This document shows positions 9,040-64,000 of a DNA stretch of 64,000 nt, one piece after another (the first letter of the stretch is position 1; the number at the start of each line of letters is the position of its first letter). Below the pieces are notes generated by a model. That model was given only the letters and a program-made list of their open reading frames with translations. It searched no databases and was not told the DNA's origin. The stretch comes from Cristatella mucedo (lineage: Eukaryota > Bryozoa > Phylactolaemata > Cristatellidae): positions 905,501 to 969,500 of the forward strand of contig WPIO01000032.1 of the NCBI GenBank assembly GCA_009760855.2. Direction: 5' to 3'. The position numbers were made by a program, and so were the translations under genes.

Positions 9040-9640
9040 ACGTTCGCATTTTCAAGGCTATCAGGGCAAATCTTAAATCTGGGATGGCTTTTGAAGTGAC
9101 GTTTTCACCCACTCACACAAAAGATGACAGACACTTCGCGTCTATATATTGTATACACCCTAACATCGCGATGGGTGCACCTTACATAGCACCATCTACT
9201 CTCCACACACATCTTTTTTAAACGGTTACCTTCCTTTATTCCTCTTTTATTCATACTCTCTCATTAAGAATGCTGCAGTCGCGCACGCAATTTATTCGGG
9301 TGATGGCCTAGTGGATTTCACTTTGATGCCAGTCTTATCCAGCCTGCTGCCTTCGAGCAGGCGGTTGCAGGTGGGACACAGTTGGTCATCAATTTTCGTA
9401 CTTGGGCGGCTTAAGCACTCTGACTAGGAGGAAATTCGGCGCAGGTAATAAGGAGACATGATAGTTACAACCCAGCTGCCGCTTTCCTTAAGACACTAAA
9501 ATAATTGCGATCCTTAAAAATGAGACCCCAGTCAATCAATTGGGAGGATCCCGATACGATATTAGTCTAGATGGCTTAATCTAAACTCACTGTTTCCGCT
9601 GTCACAGAGCATCCATTTATTCAGCTTTTTGCCAGCCGGC
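9040..9640. other. Upstream region of the MRRF gene
   Basis: No repeat or second gene is recognised. It should contain the MRRF promoter and 5' UTR, but I see no clear TATA element close to the start. Confidence 0.35.
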
Positions 9641-9642
9641 AA

Positions 9643-10458
9643 ATGTCCTTCGCCTGCTCTCGCTCCTCGGCTTTCCTGAGGATTGTGCTGTGTCAACGTC
9701 GGTCTTTCAGCGATGGGTGTTTCTTAACAGGTGCTTTGCATAATTTTGTCTCCTGTCCTAAAGTTTATTTGTCGCGGTGCTCGCCGATTCTTCACCGTGC
9801 TGCTAGGACCATTTGGAGGACCTACACTTCCAAAACGAAAAAGGAGTTGCCTTCCAAGAAGGAGGGCACTTCTAAGTTGCAAACGACAGAGAGTGGGTTG
9901 ACAATCATTGCAGATTTTGAAAAGTTTCGTCAACAGCTGCAGCGTGTCGTTGATGAGCTGAAAGCTGACTTCACTCAGCAGTTAAATCTGAGAACCAACA
10001 TAGGTGCATTCGACCACCTGATTGTTGAGGCCGATGGTAAGAAATACCAGCTGAACACTGTCGCTCAGATTTCACAGCGTAGCCCCCAACTTGTGGCGCT
10101 TAATATGGTGGCGACACCCCAGTATATCACCGCTGTGAAAGCTGCCATCGCCAGTTCCGGCTTGAACGTTACTCCTCAGCAAGATGGAACTACCATCTTC
10201 ATACCACTGCCGAAAGTCACACGAGAGCATCGCGAAAATCTCGCCAAGTCTGCAAAGTCAATGTGTGACAAAGCTAAAGTGAAGCTCCGCGACGTTCAAA
10301 ATAAGTTCATTCGTGATTCCAGGAAGCACAAGGCCACTCAGTCAGCTGATCTCATTCGGGAGATTGAGAGCGAGCTTCACACAGTAACCCAGGAGTACGC
10401 ACTACAGGCAGATACCATAATGAAAGCTAAGCAAGAAGAACTTCTAGCTACTAACTGA
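9643..10458 (+). CDS. MRRF: Mitochondrial ribosome recycling factor
   Basis: This 271-residue protein is an RRF/Frr family member. RRF acts with mitochondrial EF-G2 to split the post-termination ribosome and free mRNA and tRNA in the mitochondrial matrix. Residues 1-80 form a basic, Ser/Arg-rich leader with few acidic residues, as expected of a mitochondrial targeting peptide. Residues about 88-112 and 193-268 give the two halves of the long three-helix domain I. Residues about 116-192 give the beta-barrel domain II, including the conserved YQLNTVAQIS and DGTTIFIPLPKVTREHRENL segments. Length is close to that of animal MRRF (about 260 residues). The ATG at 9643 is the first in frame and precedes the leader. 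The frame is intact and free of introns. ATTAAA-type poly(A) signal candidates occur about 80 nt after the stop. It may be a naturally intronless gene or an intact retrocopy; no poly(A) tract marks a retrocopy. Confidence 0.92.
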   Translation: MSFACSRSSAFLRIVLCQRRSFSDGCFLTGALHNFVSCPKVYLSRCSPILHRAARTIWRTYTSKTKKELPSKKEGTSKLQTTESGLTIIADFEKFRQQLQRVVDELKADFTQQLNLRTNIGAFDHLIVEADGKKYQLNTVAQISQRSPQLVALNMVATPQYITAVKAAIASSGLNVTPQQDGTTIFIPLPKVTREHRENLAKSAKSMCDKAKVKLRDVQNKFIRDSRKHKATQSADLIREIESELHTVTQEYALQADTIMKAKQEELLATN

Positions 10459-11320: not shown

Positions 11321-11324
11321 CCTT

Positions 11325-11478
11325 GCCGAGCTGGTTTGGTCTAGCGGTTAAGGTGCTCGCCCCGACCAAGGTCTGACTGAGGTCGTGGGCTCGAGCCCCG
11401 AGGCATATGTAAAGGGCCTGAATAGAGATTAAGTTCTCTTGGGCGCTATATAAATGAATTATATATATTTTTTAATTT
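11325..11478 (+). mobile_element. SINE-A, copy 2 (near-complete reference copy)
   Basis: This is one of the best preserved copies: GAGCTGGTTTGGTCTAGCGG with box A, GGTCGTGGGCTCGAGCCCCG with box B, then the LINE-A-like tail with the AGATTAAGTTCTCTTGGG hairpin and a T/A-rich 3' end. Confidence 0.92.
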
Positions 11479-11479
11479 T

Positions 11480-13351: not shown

Positions 13352-13588
13352 TACTCCATCCTCACAGAAGTGGCCAGTCAGGCTGGCCATAACGGCAGCG
13401 TGATCCCCCCACCTAGGTTATACACCTTGCGGACCGACAGAGACCTCTGGTCGAGAGCCCTAGCTAGTCATGACTAAACAAGCAAGACTACAGGCCTGCA
13501 TTTAAGATTTATCGGGTTAGCTATTCAGGATGCTTGCCAGCTACACTCTGAAAATAAGGCCATTTGAAGATGCCCCTATCTTCTAATG

Positions 13589-13775
13589 CAGCAGTTCTAA
13601 ACCTGTAGGCCGCGACCCCTTTGGGGGTCGAACGACCCTTTCACAGGGGGTATTTTAAGACGTCTGCAAACAGGCATGTCCATATTTTGCAAACAATAAT
13701 TTTATGGTTGAGGGTCACCAAGGCATGAGGAACTGTATTTAAGGGTCGCTGCATTAGGAAGGTTGAGAACCACAG
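13589..13775. mobile_element. SPIN-like hAT MITE with perfect 8-bp target duplication
   Basis: This 187-bp non-autonomous DNA transposon has imperfect terminal inverted repeats: CAGCAGTTCTAAACCT at the left and AGGTTGAGAACCACAG at the right. It is flanked by the perfect 8-bp direct repeat TTCTAATG at 13581-13588 and 13776-13783, as expected of hAT insertions. The subterminal parts (CGACCCCTTTGGGGGTCGAA, GACCCTTTCACAGGGG, and GGGTCACC..GGCATGAGGAACTG) agree closely with the SPACE INVADERS (SPIN)/URR1-type hAT MITEs as I remember them. There is no transposase inside. The two ends are well preserved; the interior is more diverged and is AT-rich. Confidence 0.9.
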
Positions 13776-13799
13776 TTCTAATGGATTTACATTTTGGAA

Positions 13800-19639: not shown

Positions 19640-20350
19640 CACAGTAGATGCTGTTAGTATAATTCTGCTCCCCTAAAGCTTCCGATGAGGCACGAAAAGC
19701 TTATTTAGAAAACTTGTTTCCTTAAGTCGGAGCTGATAGCTAAAAAAAGGGGCAGCGAAAAACAGGGTAATAATTCGACTACCAACAGTACCAACTATAG
19801 TTTTAACGAACTTATCGCCGCTAAAGATGCCGCTGCTTCACAGCTGTGGCTTTGAGCAATTCACGAGTAGCCAAGAGCACTGTTATTGCTCAGGTAAGTG
19901 ACCAGATGTTTTGTGAGCCATTGAAGTCTTGAAATTACATAAACATTTTCTTAGTAGCGACTCTCCGTCTTCAAAGTCGTAGCAGCTTCCTAGACGGCAT
20001 TGTTCAATAGCTCAATCTGCTCACTTTGAAGACACCCTCTGAGTGATGGCAATGACTTAAAAGTGTTTTGTGTAAGGCCAAGTGACACTAAACTTGTGCA
20101 TTGTCATTTTCTGCAGTTATAGCTGCGTTTCAGTGTATGAACCGGTCTTTAACTGTGCAGCAACGGTTGAAGCATATAGAATCGGCGCTTGGAGGACATA
20201 CTCCTTGTTGATTAAACTGTGTAGCACAGTGCTTGATATTGGAAAGTAAATGATACTTAACGCTTGCTTATATCTCAAAAAGAGAAATAAAATTGCCATT
20301 TGCCAAACAATTGACTCTATGACCAAAATATTTTGAATTTACCAACCGCT
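19640..20350. other. No recognisable gene or repeat
   Basis: Nothing coding or repeated is recognised before the SINE-A copy at 20.36 kb. Confidence 0.4.
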
Positions 20351-20355
20351 AAATA

Positions 20356-20510
20356 ACGAGCTGGGTTGGTCCAGCGGTTAAGGTGCTCGCCCCGACTAAG
20401 GTCTGGCTGAGGTCGTGGGCTCGAGCCCTGAGGCATATGTGAAGCGCCTGGATAGGGATTTATTTCTCTTGGGGCGCTATACAAATGAATTATTTAAATT
20501 TTTTAATTTT
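20356..20510 (+). mobile_element. SINE-A, copy 3
   Basis: It contains GAGCTGGGTTGGTCCAGCGG, GGTCGTGGGCTCGAGCCCTG and the LINE-A-like tail ending AAATGAATTATTTAAA. Confidence 0.9.
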
Positions 20511-21239: not shown

Positions 21240-22545
21240 TAAGGAGGATCTTCCGCTGAATACTCTTTTGCTCTAGTCTTGATCAATTTGGTGCCGACAT
21301 ACCAAAGCACCTGTTCCAGAGGCTTCCAGATTCTTCCGGTCTGTTGATGTCTTCTCACAAATATACGATATATCTGTATGTATATAAATCAGCAAATGCA
21401 GCCGGATCTAATCTGAACTGGTTGTCCTAAGGTCCTTGTACCTATGGAATTTGTATTAAAAGAAATATTAATATAAGGAAGTTAGTAGTTGCGATGCATT
21501 AATCTTTCGAACAACTGATCATTACTACGGGTCACTAAGTTATCTGGGAATCAAACATACAGGTAGATACATGAAATCCTGAACTTTCCTTGTTGTACAC
21601 TCATTTGCTTGGGTGACAATGCATGAGTGATAAAATCTATATAAATTTGAATTGTTCTACTCAAAACTAACCTTGACGTAATATTTGTATATTCTTAATG
21701 TCCTCGAGAAGAAGTAAATTTCAAATCTTACGAACTATCCGAGTCGCGAGAGGAAATTTTTTCGGTAATAAATCTACAATTTTTATCCCTTTGAGGTATG
21801 ACACTTACTTTCCAGAAATAACGATGAATAAAACAATGGTGCTACATTTTTTTAAATTAATCTTAAAGGGAATTCTGGGCACCAATTTAAATAGCAAACA
21901 AAATGAATCCGACTGTATTCAATGAAATCTAAGATAGGCCAAAAGCGCATTCCTAATTTTAAACAAAAAAGCACAGTGGGTTACTTTGTAATCTCAATTA
22001 TAAGTTCCACACTCCCACCATATCGAGAGTACATGGTTTTGATGTGGTTTTCGATGGCCCCATTGATGTTTACCATTTTTCTTTAGAAGACTCCTTATTC
22101 TGCCACACATCACTCTCTCAATGTTTTTATAAGTAAAGATTTAATGAAGTCCTTGTTTCTCTCTTGGCCAGACAACTACTGCTCAGCTCAGGAGCAGACA
22201 GCCTGCCAACAAAGTCACTATTGTTCCTCAGTTGGTACTTAATACAGCTGCTAGGTCAAACTTTAAGGGACTTATATTATACTTAAACCCAGATTTTCAG
22301 CTAAGTGCCTACTGTTCTCGATTTTTCTTCCTTCTTCATTATTGTAAGGGCACTGAAATCTGCTTAAGCCCTCTGCTCGCTATAGTAGCAAAAATTGCCC
22401 CTCCCCCACTTTCACACCATCAAAGTAATTACGTTTTTCTAAATCTACCGACATAAAAAGATCGTAATCGTGCGTATATATCTGGCCGCTCAAGGTTGTA
22501 GGCTGAATTTGAAAAGGTTCATGTCTTCTCGGTCTCCCAATCGAT
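21240..22545. other. No recognisable gene or repeat
   Basis: AT-rich. The 75-codon frame at 21698-21925 has no recognised domain. Confidence 0.4.
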
Positions 22546-22548
22546 ATA

Positions 22549-22700
22549 TGCCGAGCCGGTTTGGTCCAGTGGTTAAGGTGCTCGCCCCGACCAGGCCTGG
22601 CTGAAGTCGTGGACTCCAGCCCCGGGACATATGCGAAGCGCCTGAATAGAGATTAATTTCTCTTGGGGCCCTATTCAAATGAGTTAATTTTGTATTTATA
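22549..22700 (+). mobile_element. SINE-A, copy 4
   Basis: It contains GAGCCGGTTTGGTCCAGTGG, a mutated box B region (GTCGTGGACTCCAGCCCC) and the shared LINE-A-like tail. Confidence 0.88.
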
Positions 22701-22704
22701 TATT

Positions 22705-43749: not shown

Positions 43750-44035
43750 CGCCTGCCCTAAACCCTAAATCCTAAAACCCTAAACACTAAAACCTAAACC
43801 CTGAAAACCGTAAGGCCTATAATCACCATAAACACTAAACACTAAAACCTGAAAACCGTAAACCTTATAATCACCCTAAACACTAAACCTAAGCACTAAA
43901 CCCTGAACACTAAACCCTAAAACCTTAAACACTAAACCATAAACACTAAAACCTAAACCCTTAAACCATAAACCCTATAATCACCCGAAACACGAAACCC
44001 TAAGCACTAAACCCTAAACCGTAAACCATATACGG
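43750..44035. repeat. Degenerate CCCTAAA-like (telomere-like) repeats
   Basis: About 285 bp consists of CCCTAAA, CACTAAA, ACCTAAA and CCGTAAA variants, with a larger unit of about 85-100 bp (including CTATAATCACC, at about 43818, 43868 and 43976) repeated three times. Confidence 0.8.
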
Positions 44036-52901: not shown

Positions 52902-54236
52902 AATAATAATAATGTACTTGATGAAGCGCCCTCAGAGAACTTAATCTCTTTCTAGGCGCTTTACATTTGCTGCAAAGGGAAATGCAATTAAATGGTAAGT
53001 AAAATCATGCTTGAAAAACAAACAAAATGTATAACCAGGTTAGGGGTGACATGCACAGGGTCAGCACGCATAAGCACGTGAAGGACGAATCACAAGGACC
53101 CACTAAATGCTGTCCTAAATAGGTGTGTTTTTTAGTTCCTTTTAAATGTGGCCAGGTCAGGGATGTTCTGACGAAGGTCGGGAGGGAGTTCCAGGCTTTG
53201 GGAGCATACGAACTAAATGCACGGTCTCCAAAGGATTTGAGGTTTGTACGAGGTATTTCTAAACTGTTTGATTCGGAAAAGCGCATGGTACGATGCTTGG
53301 CCTGATGGAGGAGTATGTCGGAGAGATAGGCTGGAGCCATAGAATGAAGGGACCTAAAAGTGAGCGAAAACACTTTGAAGTCAATCCGTTGCTTGACTGG
53401 TAGCCAGTGCAGGTCGGCGAGAAGTGGAGAAATGTGGCAACTGCGACGCTCACGACAGACAAGCCTAGCTGCAGAGTTTTGCACAAGCTGCAATCGCCTG
53501 ATCGCACATGCTGGTAGGCCAGTAAGCAGCGAGTTGCAGAAGTCGAGACGAGATGTCACGAATGCATGGACCAACTTGGACGTGGTATCCTTATCTAAAC
53601 AAGCCCGAATTTTAGCAATATTATGAAACTGAAAATAGGCAGATTTGACTGTGGAGCTGATATGGTCGTCTAACGAGAGGTCGCTTTGGAATATGACACC
53701 TAGATTTCGAGCTGATTCGACAGGAGATATGCTGGCAGAGTCAATTTTGAGAGACAGCCTTTCCAATCTCTGAATCACACTGGGTTTTCCCATAACTAGT
53801 AAGTTAGTTTTGTCATAGTTTAGTTTTAGAAAATTTGCTGCCATCCATGTGCGGATGTCATCAATGCATGCTGCAAGTGAGTTTAGAGAACTTGAGGTGC
53901 TCGAAGGCTGGGGGGTTCAAAGCAAAGGTACAACTGAGTGTCATCCGCATAGAAGTGAAAGCCTAGATTGTGCTTGGCAATCACATCAGCAAGAGGGACA
54001 GTATAAACCGTGAAAAGAACCGGACCTAGCACGGAGCGCTGAGGTACTCCATATTTCACAGGTACTTCAGATGATCTTTGTCCATTCACGTCAATACTCT
54101 GTAGTCTCCCACTGAGATTGGACCTGAACCACTGCAGAGCAGTGCCAGTGATGCCCGGGCGAGATGAGAAGAGCTCTAGAAGAACTTTGTGATCGATGGT
54201 TTCAAAAGCTGCCGAAAGATCGAGCAAAACAAGCAT
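52902..54236 (-). mobile_element. LINE-A (L2 clade), longest copy, 5'-truncated
   Basis: On the minus strand the RT starts inside motif LVLLDLSAAFETIDHKVLL (54236-54180). It continues through GVPQRSVLGPVLFTVYTVPL, the catalytic [14 protein letters not shown], then after one frameshift at about 53.87 kb DIRTWMAANFLKLNYDKTNL, NLGVIFQSDLSLDDHISSTV, TSRLDFCNSLLTGLPACAIR, RLVCRERRSCHISPLLADLH, WLPVKQRIDFKVFSLTF and RAFSSYAPKAWNSLPTFVRT. It ends with the hairpin tail and (AAT)n at 52903-52960. Endonuclease and the start of RT are missing, and it cannot be autonomous. Both ends abut TG microsatellite sequence. Confidence 0.93.
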
Positions 54237-54243
54237 GTGTGTC

Positions 54244-54279
<36 letters not shown>

Positions 54280-62224: not shown

Positions 62225-62910
62225 ATTGAATCACAAATTCAAAATCAAAAACATGCTGACTTCTGTGATTAGCCTTCTATTTAACCACTACTAGGTAAGC
62301 TATTTTCCCAGTGGTTACTGTGATGATCTAGCTGATCGGTTCTCTAGCTTCTTTGTTAACAAGATAGACAAGATCAGGTTGTCCCTCCCTAAGATGGCGG
62401 CATCCCACTGGACTCATGTCCATCAATTCCATGCAGTCCCTTAATGTCTACATTCAATGTCACTAAGGACCTCGCCCTTAAGTTCATATCCCAAAAGATA
62501 ACTAGCCCCATGGACCATATTATTATTGTCCTGCTTCTATGATGCATTGATCTCCTGCTGCCATGCATAACTATTATCATTAATATGTCATTAACTTCAG
62601 ATCATGTCACGTCCCAGCACCTTTCCAAAAGGCTGTAGTCCGGCCACTACTCAAGAAAGCAACACTAGACCAACATAAGTTGAGCTACTTCCGCCGTCTC
62701 CCTTCTACCGTTCCTGTTAAAGACACTAGAACGAGTCGAGGCCGACCAGTTGAACACATACATAGTTTAAACCCCAAACCTTATAGTAAGTTCAGTGGTT
62801 AAGGTGCTCGCCCCAACTAAGGTCTGGCTGAAGTCGTGGGCTCGAGGCTCCGAGGATTATGTGAAGTACCTGAATAGAGATTAATTTCTCTTGAACGCTA
62901 TGTAAATGAA

Positions 62911-62943
<33 letters not shown>

Positions 62944-63883
62944 AATTAATTAAACTTTACACTCTGGTTTCACAGCTGATCGCCCCACAGATTCGATATT
63001 GCTTCGGGTGTATAACGACCTACTTAGGAACGCAGACTATGGTAGAGCCGTCCAGCTTGTTATGCTCAATCTTTCGGCAGCTTTTGATGCTATCGATCAC
63101 CAAGTCCTTCTTTAGCGCCTCTCTTCTCGCCTGGGCATCACTGGCACAGCTCAGCAATGGTTCTTCACGGAATGGTTAGGGTCCTATCTCAGTGGGAGAA
63201 TACAGAGTACGGCTGTGAATAGACACAGATCATGCCGATGTGATAGCCAAGCTCAATTTGGGCTTTCAGATCTACGCAGGTGACACTCTTTAGTACTTTT
63301 ATTTTTACCTGTCTCAGCCCTCCAGGAGACCAAATTCTCTCAACTCCCTGGCTGCATGCATTGATTACATCAGCATTTGGATTCGAAGCCAACTTTCTTA
63401 TATTGAATGTGGATATAACCAACTTACTAGTTATTGGCAAACCAAGTGTGATTCGGAAATGGAAAAAGTGTAATGCTCACAATCGCTCTGTGATCATTTC
63501 TCATGTTGACCTGCACAAATCTAAGAGTTCTGTTTCAAATTGAACGTTCATTAAACGATCACATCAGCTCCACATTCAAGTCTGCCTAATATCAGCTGCA
63601 TAGCATTGCTAAAACTCTATCTTGTTTAGACTGAGATAACACATCTAAATTGTTTCATGCATTTGTGACGTCCCACCTTGACTTCTGCAGCTCACTGCTC
63701 GCTTGTCTACCGACCGACCTGTGCAATCAGGGGCTTACTACAGGTGCAAAACGCAGCTAGGCTTGTCTGTCGTGAGCTTCACAGTTGCTATGTCACACCA
63801 ATTCTTGCTGACCTGTACTGGCTCCCAGATAAGCAACGCATCAACTTCAAAATTTTCTCACTTAAATTTAGGTCATATCATTA
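62225..63883 (+). mobile_element. LINE-A fragment interrupted by SINE-A
   Basis: From the pre-RT linker (LVDKIDKIRxSL-like), the RT start is FQKAVVRPLLKKATLDQHKL. After the SINE-A it resumes with DSILLRVYNDLLRNADYGRA, VQLVMLNLSAAFDAIDHQVL, a degenerate YADDT box at about 63265-63290 and the C-terminal region up to 63883. Several frameshifts. Confidence 0.87.
62788..62950 (+). mobile_element. SINE-A, copy 5, nested in LINE-A, 5'-truncated
   Basis: It starts within box A (TTCAGTGGTTAAGGTGCTCG), then GTCGTGGGCTCGAGGCTCCG and the LINE-A-like tail, ending in a (TA)n run at 62912-62942. Confidence 0.88.
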
Positions 63884-63884
63884 A

Positions 63885-64000
63885 GTATAATTCGTTTATT
63901 TAGAGCTCCAAGAAAACTTAATTTTCTACTCAGGCGCTTTATATTTCCCTCGGAGCTAGAGCCCACGACCTCAGCCAAACCTTGGTCGGAAGGGGATTAC
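63885..64000 (-). mobile_element. SINE-A, copy 6, cut by the window end
   Basis: Antisense SINE-A: AGGCGCTTTATATTTCCC, then CCCACGACCTCAGCCAAACC and TTGGTCGGAAGGGG. It is inserted at the point where the plus-strand LINE-A stops, so it is probably another nested insertion; the tRNA-like head is partly outside the window. Confidence 0.82.

Follow-up and report, generated by a model that had tools for sequence, protein, structure and literature searches.

Transposons of the hAT superfamily carry short terminal inverted repeats (TIRs) that start with CAG. One of them, SPIN, is well known for crossing phyla, and the invertebrate side of its record is thin; the pond snail Lymnaea is among its hosts. 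Its invasions of tetrapods are placed at 15 to 46 My ago. SPIN is described from turtle, with transfers from tetrapods (PMC4054807; PMC11614815), and non-autonomous copies (SPIN_NA) in the triatomine Rhodnius prolixus are ascribed to transfer from tetrapods (PMC11614815, citing Gilbert et al. 2010). A SPIN-like hAT of about 1,000 copies is described from the freshwater snail Biomphalaria glabrata, and the same paper calls the DNA transposons of this snail not recent and records no intact transposase (PMC5440852). The initial annotation of the present locus had mentioned reports from a triatomine bug and a freshwater snail, and both are in print in these sources. Buster and SPIN have been placed in one family, the Buster family, and the target duplications of TcBuster follow the pattern nnnTAnnn (PMC3499496).

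The window studied here is a stretch of 64,000 nucleotides (G000:C255:905501-969500) from a 688-contig assembly totalling 572,011,866 bases, referred to below as the 572-Mb genome. It holds a non-coding element of 187 bp at 13589..13775 on the forward strand, which we describe as a SPIN-type non-autonomous hAT element (MITE) and which differs from the consensus of its host-genome family by 28 substitutions (15%). The 5′ TIR, CAGCAGTTCTAAACCT, lies at 13589..13604 and the 3′ TIR, AGGTTGAGAACCACAG, at 13760..13775, both read directly from the forward strand; these 16-bp repeats match each other at 12 of 16 positions in the window copy and at 15 of 16 in the family consensus, so that the short TIRs of hAT transposons are found in both. 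The element is flanked by an 8-bp target-site duplication, TTCTAATG, at 13581..13588, with an exact second copy at 13776..13783, and this sequence fits nnnTAnnn. The ends and the exact 8-bp flanks claimed in the initial annotation are therefore present as described, and 8-bp duplications, as in other hAT elements, occur in the window copy and across the family. When the window was searched with the element, no second copy was found within its 64 kb. The 189 bp directly upstream of the element matched only themselves in a genome search, which places the boundary of the repeat at the left end of the element; because this boundary is sharp and at least 40 further places in the genome match, the element is not a product of chance. 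The copy in the window is a dead, old member of its family and is ordinary by itself.

The family consensus was compared with a presumed, uncurated sequence for a SPIN/URR1-type MITE of tetrapods, which serves as a provisional reference. Against it, the 5′ block (13589..13673, forward strand) is identical at all of the first 85 positions (85/85) and the 3′ block (13695..13775, forward strand) at 80 of the last 81 (80/81), giving end blocks that are 165/166 identical to those of the host-genome consensus. Between the blocks lies a middle segment of 21 bp (13674..13694, forward strand) that belongs to the host-genome family and is unlike the longer, different middle that we take SPIN to have. 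The window copy itself is further from the presumed SPIN/URR1 sequence, with 24 mismatches besides gaps. On this comparison the likeness extends well beyond the terminal repeats that many hAT families have in common, and we regard the SPIN identity of the end blocks as a strong lead that depends on a presumed reference; the label SPIN is very likely the right one. The suggestion that this is a SPIN-like hAT MITE is thus backed by the nnnTAnnn duplications, the termini and the likeness to the presumed reference.

The described systems differ in how closely they approach this family. The non-autonomous SPIN elements of tetrapods, including rodent URR1, share with it their size class, their TIRs and their 8-bp TA-centred duplications, whereas the family described here is 187 bp long, has a private 21-bp middle and resides in a non-vertebrate host. 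The SPIN_NA elements of Rhodnius resemble it in being SPIN in an invertebrate but sit in an insect, whereas the present host is probably a lophotrochozoan with an estimated ~1,700 copies. Likewise by description, the SPIN-like hAT of Biomphalaria has a lophotrochozoan host and a similar copy number, although Biomphalaria and Lymnaea are both heterobranch snails. TcBuster is likened here by its 8-bp nnnTAnnn target duplications; in contrast, it is an autonomous coding element. Searches with the element gave no match in phages and plasmids, and exact element patterns gave none in viral contigs or in GTDB contigs. Six SPIN-type sequence strings had no matches in paper texts, and in the open-licence literature searched we recognised no report of SPIN in a non-heterobranch lophotrochozoan.

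At least 40 further copies, at 77–86% identity to the window copy, were recovered as the best 40 of 2059 first-look candidates. The fetched set comprises 39 loci with 40 copies (one locus has two) on 32 contigs, and a 187-bp majority consensus was built from these 40 copies; because they had been picked by likeness to the window copy, the sample leans to well-preserved copies. From this consensus, 39 of the 40 diverge by 3.2–8.6% and one by 14.4%, and 39 align over 185–187 of its positions, the remaining one over 180. When the genome was searched with the consensus, the best 40 of 2336 first-look candidates showed 94–96% identity, the 41st being listed at 85%, and no very young copy was seen among the best-scoring copies listed for this query. 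A 24-mer from the 5′ block occurs at 946 places in the genome (497 + 449) with at most two mismatches, its reversed control at none, and a 24-mer from the middle without CpG occurs at 930 places at the same threshold, 125 of them exact, with no hits for the controls. The copy count in the host assembly proposed in the initial annotation accordingly reveals a multi-copy family with more than 900 pattern places (946 and 930), which is short, numerous and of uniform length in the manner of a MITE.

The flanks of these copies carry the signature of their insertion. Among 41 copies including that of the window, the 8-bp flanks are identical in 12, differ by one mismatch in 14, by two in 4 and by three to seven in 11. 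At most two mismatches are thus found in 30 of 41 copies (73%) versus 8% after the right flanks were shuffled among copies; the flank ends were extrapolated without gaps, and indels therefore add mismatches to these counts. Among the 26 of 41 copies with at most one mismatch, 25 have T at position 4 of the duplication and all 26 have A at position 5. The family therefore shows the nnnTAnnn target of the Buster family, and the duplication in the window, TTCTAATG, conforms to it as well.

If all copies are taken to diverge equally, a uniform binomial model turns the ratio of exact to total places for the middle 24-mer (125/930) into an estimated divergence of about 0.10 and a copy number of about 1,700; unequal rates would raise both figures. 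Pairs of the 40 fetched copies differ on average by 0.112, versus 0.121 expected as twice the mean divergence from the consensus. This near-equality points to a star shape and hence to a single burst. CpG sites have decayed 2.6 times faster than other sites in the same copies (0.133 versus 0.051). Of the 28 substitutions of the window copy, 19 recur in at least one other copy and 9 in four or more, and from substitution sharing with the 40 copies no clear subfamily for the window copy was seen. The amplification burst looks finished, because even the best 40 copies reach only 94–96% identity to the consensus.

A source of transposase was sought among the hAT genes of the same genome, which has at least 138 PF05699 loci (150 of 766 candidates scored) and at least 145 PF18658 loci (150 of 327 candidates scored). 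None of the 30 PF05699 loci read has SPIN ends in stretches that span only 1.5 kb upstream of the C-terminal domain and show mostly the 3′ side. Over all 60 hAT loci read (30 PF05699 and 30 PF18658), mostly with one side visible, none has the ends of the MITE in transposon position. The earlier proposal to look for an autonomous hAT source in this genome thus brought up none with SPIN ends among these 60 loci. Within the 30 PF18658 loci, L112 alone has a SPIN-like 3′ piece, and L107 has a 13-bp match. The piece in L112 looks like an old, separate insertion, because it lies upstream of where the L112 transposon begins. One locus, L087, was included in the scan of PF18658 loci for SPIN ends and left out of the later comparison of zf-C2H2_12 hAT elements. 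A PDB search with one hAT frame returned nothing up to E 1.

These loci include transposon families of their own. A young hAT family with the PF05699 domain (L056-L085) is spread over many contigs and accounts for 63 of the at least 138 rows, at 69 bits or more; many rows have open frames up to ~640 aa, and the 30 loci read are ~99% identical over most of 2.2 kb, 29 of them matching L061. This family looks recently or still active. It was considered as the local autonomous source and set aside, no SPIN ends being found in the stretches seen. Two further families (L086-L115) have the zf-C2H2_12 domain: one, starting with CAGGGGTGTCCAA as read in L112, has stretches 91–96% like L112, and an older one, starting near CAGACATGGGCAAACTACGGCC as read in L096 with variants elsewhere, has main stretches 83–89% alike. 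Both were rejected as the local source, since their ends (CAGGGGTGTCCAA.. and CAGACATGGGCAAACTACGGCC..) are different.

The identity of the host could be approached through its mitochondrial contig, C688, of 21,008 bp (20,000 analysed). We identified cox1 on it, and nad1, cob, nad4L, nad4, nad5, cox3, atp6 and nad3 were recognised by Pfam; a further Proton_antipo_M protein was taken for nad2, nad6 lacks a Pfam match and was named by its position and look, and cox2 was named by eye. Codon usage was read from cox1, cob and well-aligned stretches of cox3, nad5, nad4 and part of nad1, set against solved animal chains. Most TGA codons align with Trp (cox1, 13 of 15 sites; cob, 10 of 11; cox3, nad5, nad4 and nad1 combined, 12 of 17). 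For ATA the aligned residue is Met at 9 of 11 cox1 sites and at 9 of 13 sites of the combined four (18 of 24 together), but in cob it is Leu at all 4 sites. AAA is matched by Lys at both of its cox1 sites and both of its sites in the combined four, by Thr at its one site in cob, and never by Asn; the ATA and AAA sites of cob are uninformative. Both AGA and AGG are used as sense codons: cox1 has 10 such sites (Ala 4, Ser 3, Thr 1, Gly 1, Lys 1), cob has 8 with mixed residues, and the combined four have 31, with Ser the commonest residue (13) and Gly once. Since AGR is sense, ATA is Met and AAA is Lys, this code is neither that of vertebrates nor that of echinoderms nor that of most flatworms.

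The genes nad1-nad6-cob-nad4L-nad4-nad5 form a block on a single strand of C688, which we take to be the lophotrochozoan pattern of chitons, many molluscs, phoronids and some brachiopods. Identical repeats of 1.8–2.1 kb, two direct and one inverted, flank this block (L054/L055); either this arrangement is genuine and has flip-flop isomers, or the assembly is at fault. A mitochondrial insertion (numt) in nuclear contig C166 (L049) matches C688 with 97.1% identity across 2268 bp and 96.0% across 1505 bp, and because of this match the nuclear and mitochondrial genomes are tied together. The host is a non-vertebrate and is probably a lophotrochozoan; the mitochondrial code, the gene block and the numt bear out the probable invertebrate genome of the initial annotation. 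Of the two hosts considered there, a flatworm is disfavoured by ATA on Met at 18 of 24 sites (five proteins) and by AAA on Lys at 4 of 4. Flukes read ATA as Met and AAA as Asn, so that the case against them comes down to the four AAA sites together with the gene order. For a mollusc, the other host considered, the gene block fits. An echinoderm host is likewise disfavoured by the codon test (ATA on Met, AAA on Lys). A heterobranch snail host is disfavoured because heterobranchs are reported to share a mitochondrial gene order unlike that of other gastropods (PMC2291457), and that order differs from the one on C688; in one heterobranch nad6 adjoins nad5, whereas on C688 it lies between nad1 and cob. 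The gene orders of two lottiid limpets are also unlike C688, as seen in the gene tables of PMC7648102. Two protein markers were also searched. Molluscan haemocyanin (PF14830) had no match in the genome and none in 14 control genomes either, so that it says little, and haemerythrin (PF01814) had no match in the genome and was positive in 7 of the 14 controls.

We hold with good confidence that the locus is an old, inactive member of a family of SPIN-type miniature hAT transposons from the Buster branch, which multiplied in a burst and whose parent SPIN was probably transferred horizontally. The transposase of a full-length SPIN element would have bound the shared end blocks in trans, and this Buster-type transposase would have excised the MITE and inserted it at TA-centred 8-bp sites. 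The MITE may then have multiplied in one burst and stopped. That the parent SPIN entered the host lineage horizontally and not by descent is less certain. It is suggested because ends identical to those of presumed tetrapod SPIN would hardly have been kept for more than 500 million years in freely drifting non-coding copies. The chief competing account is vertical, and here the element would be an old lineage-specific lophotrochozoan hAT MITE of Buster/Charlie type that has only its ends in common with SPIN. Many hAT families have termini of the CAGNGGTTCTCAACCT type, at least two other hAT families with zf-C2H2_12 and different ends occur in the genome, the middle is unlike that of presumed SPIN, and the SPIN reference is itself a presumed sequence. 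However, the agreement with that reference (85/85 and 80/81) extends far past the TIR, and an intragenomic divergence of ~10% is much too low for the age of the protostome-deuterostome split, so that we consider descent from a common ancestor improbable.

Two other accounts are weaker still. SPIN is best known from tetrapods, and vertebrate contamination or a chimeric assembly within the contig might be imagined; against this, the 39 loci are spread over 32 contigs, of which 28 exceed 1 Mb, with pattern places on many more, and the copies carry their own duplications and their own decay. The mitochondrial code is moreover non-vertebrate, and its numt sits in nuclear contig C166. With the family spread over so many large contigs, together with the code and the numt, contamination was rejected as its source, and the vertebrate or chimeric contig raised at the outset as a way for the first reading to fail is contradicted for the family; as an account of this locus it is scarcely credible. 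It could also be supposed that the family is still active, its transposase being supplied by the young hAT family of this genome, where intact-looking hAT transposase genes exist (~99% identical, with frames to ~640 aa). Yet none of the 30 young-family loci shows SPIN ends (their 5′ ends being mostly uncovered), the best SPIN-type copies are only 96% identical to the consensus, and the TA-centred duplications are Buster-like and not of the kind known for Ac-type families, which makes present activity very unlikely.

A burst of a SPIN-type MITE with a horizontally acquired parent is consequently the reading that we carry forward. If the presumed reference is right, horizontal transfer across phyla is its likeliest form. 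The initial idea of a candidate cross-phylum transfer holds as this likeliest reading, on the strength of the end blocks set against ~10% drift; the putative transfer is of a kind already known. Because the middle segment is private, it may be that a coding SPIN entered and yielded its own deletion product, in the host lineage or in a donor. In its more specific version we lean slightly towards a coding SPIN that entered a non-heterobranch lophotrochozoan lineage, made the 187-bp deletion product there and saw it amplified to ~1,700 copies. The animal is a probable further SPIN host of the known kind. If so, the SPIN pandemic extended deeper into the invertebrates than is apparent from the reports on an insect and on snails. 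The star-shaped family of one more invertebrate host, being large and datable, would add a point on who carried SPIN and when. The private middle would in turn show whether a coding element, and not a ready-made MITE, crossed.

Several other features were noted in the window. An open frame of 292 aa at 9580-10458 on the forward strand contains a ribosome recycling factor domain (E 1.6e-36), and the domain is intronless. Many diverged repeat pieces at 26.5–31.5 kb and 53–64 kb look like non-LTR retrotransposons, with a reverse transcriptase domain at 53883-54278. A dispersed repeat of ~100–155 bp, SINE-like in size and 76–92% alike between copies, is found at 1785-1941, 11323-11479, 20342-20510, 22537-22703, 62790-62930 and 63883-63989. 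Finally, a degenerate CCCTAAA-like array at 43756-44030 is perhaps an interstitial telomere-like sequence or a satellite.
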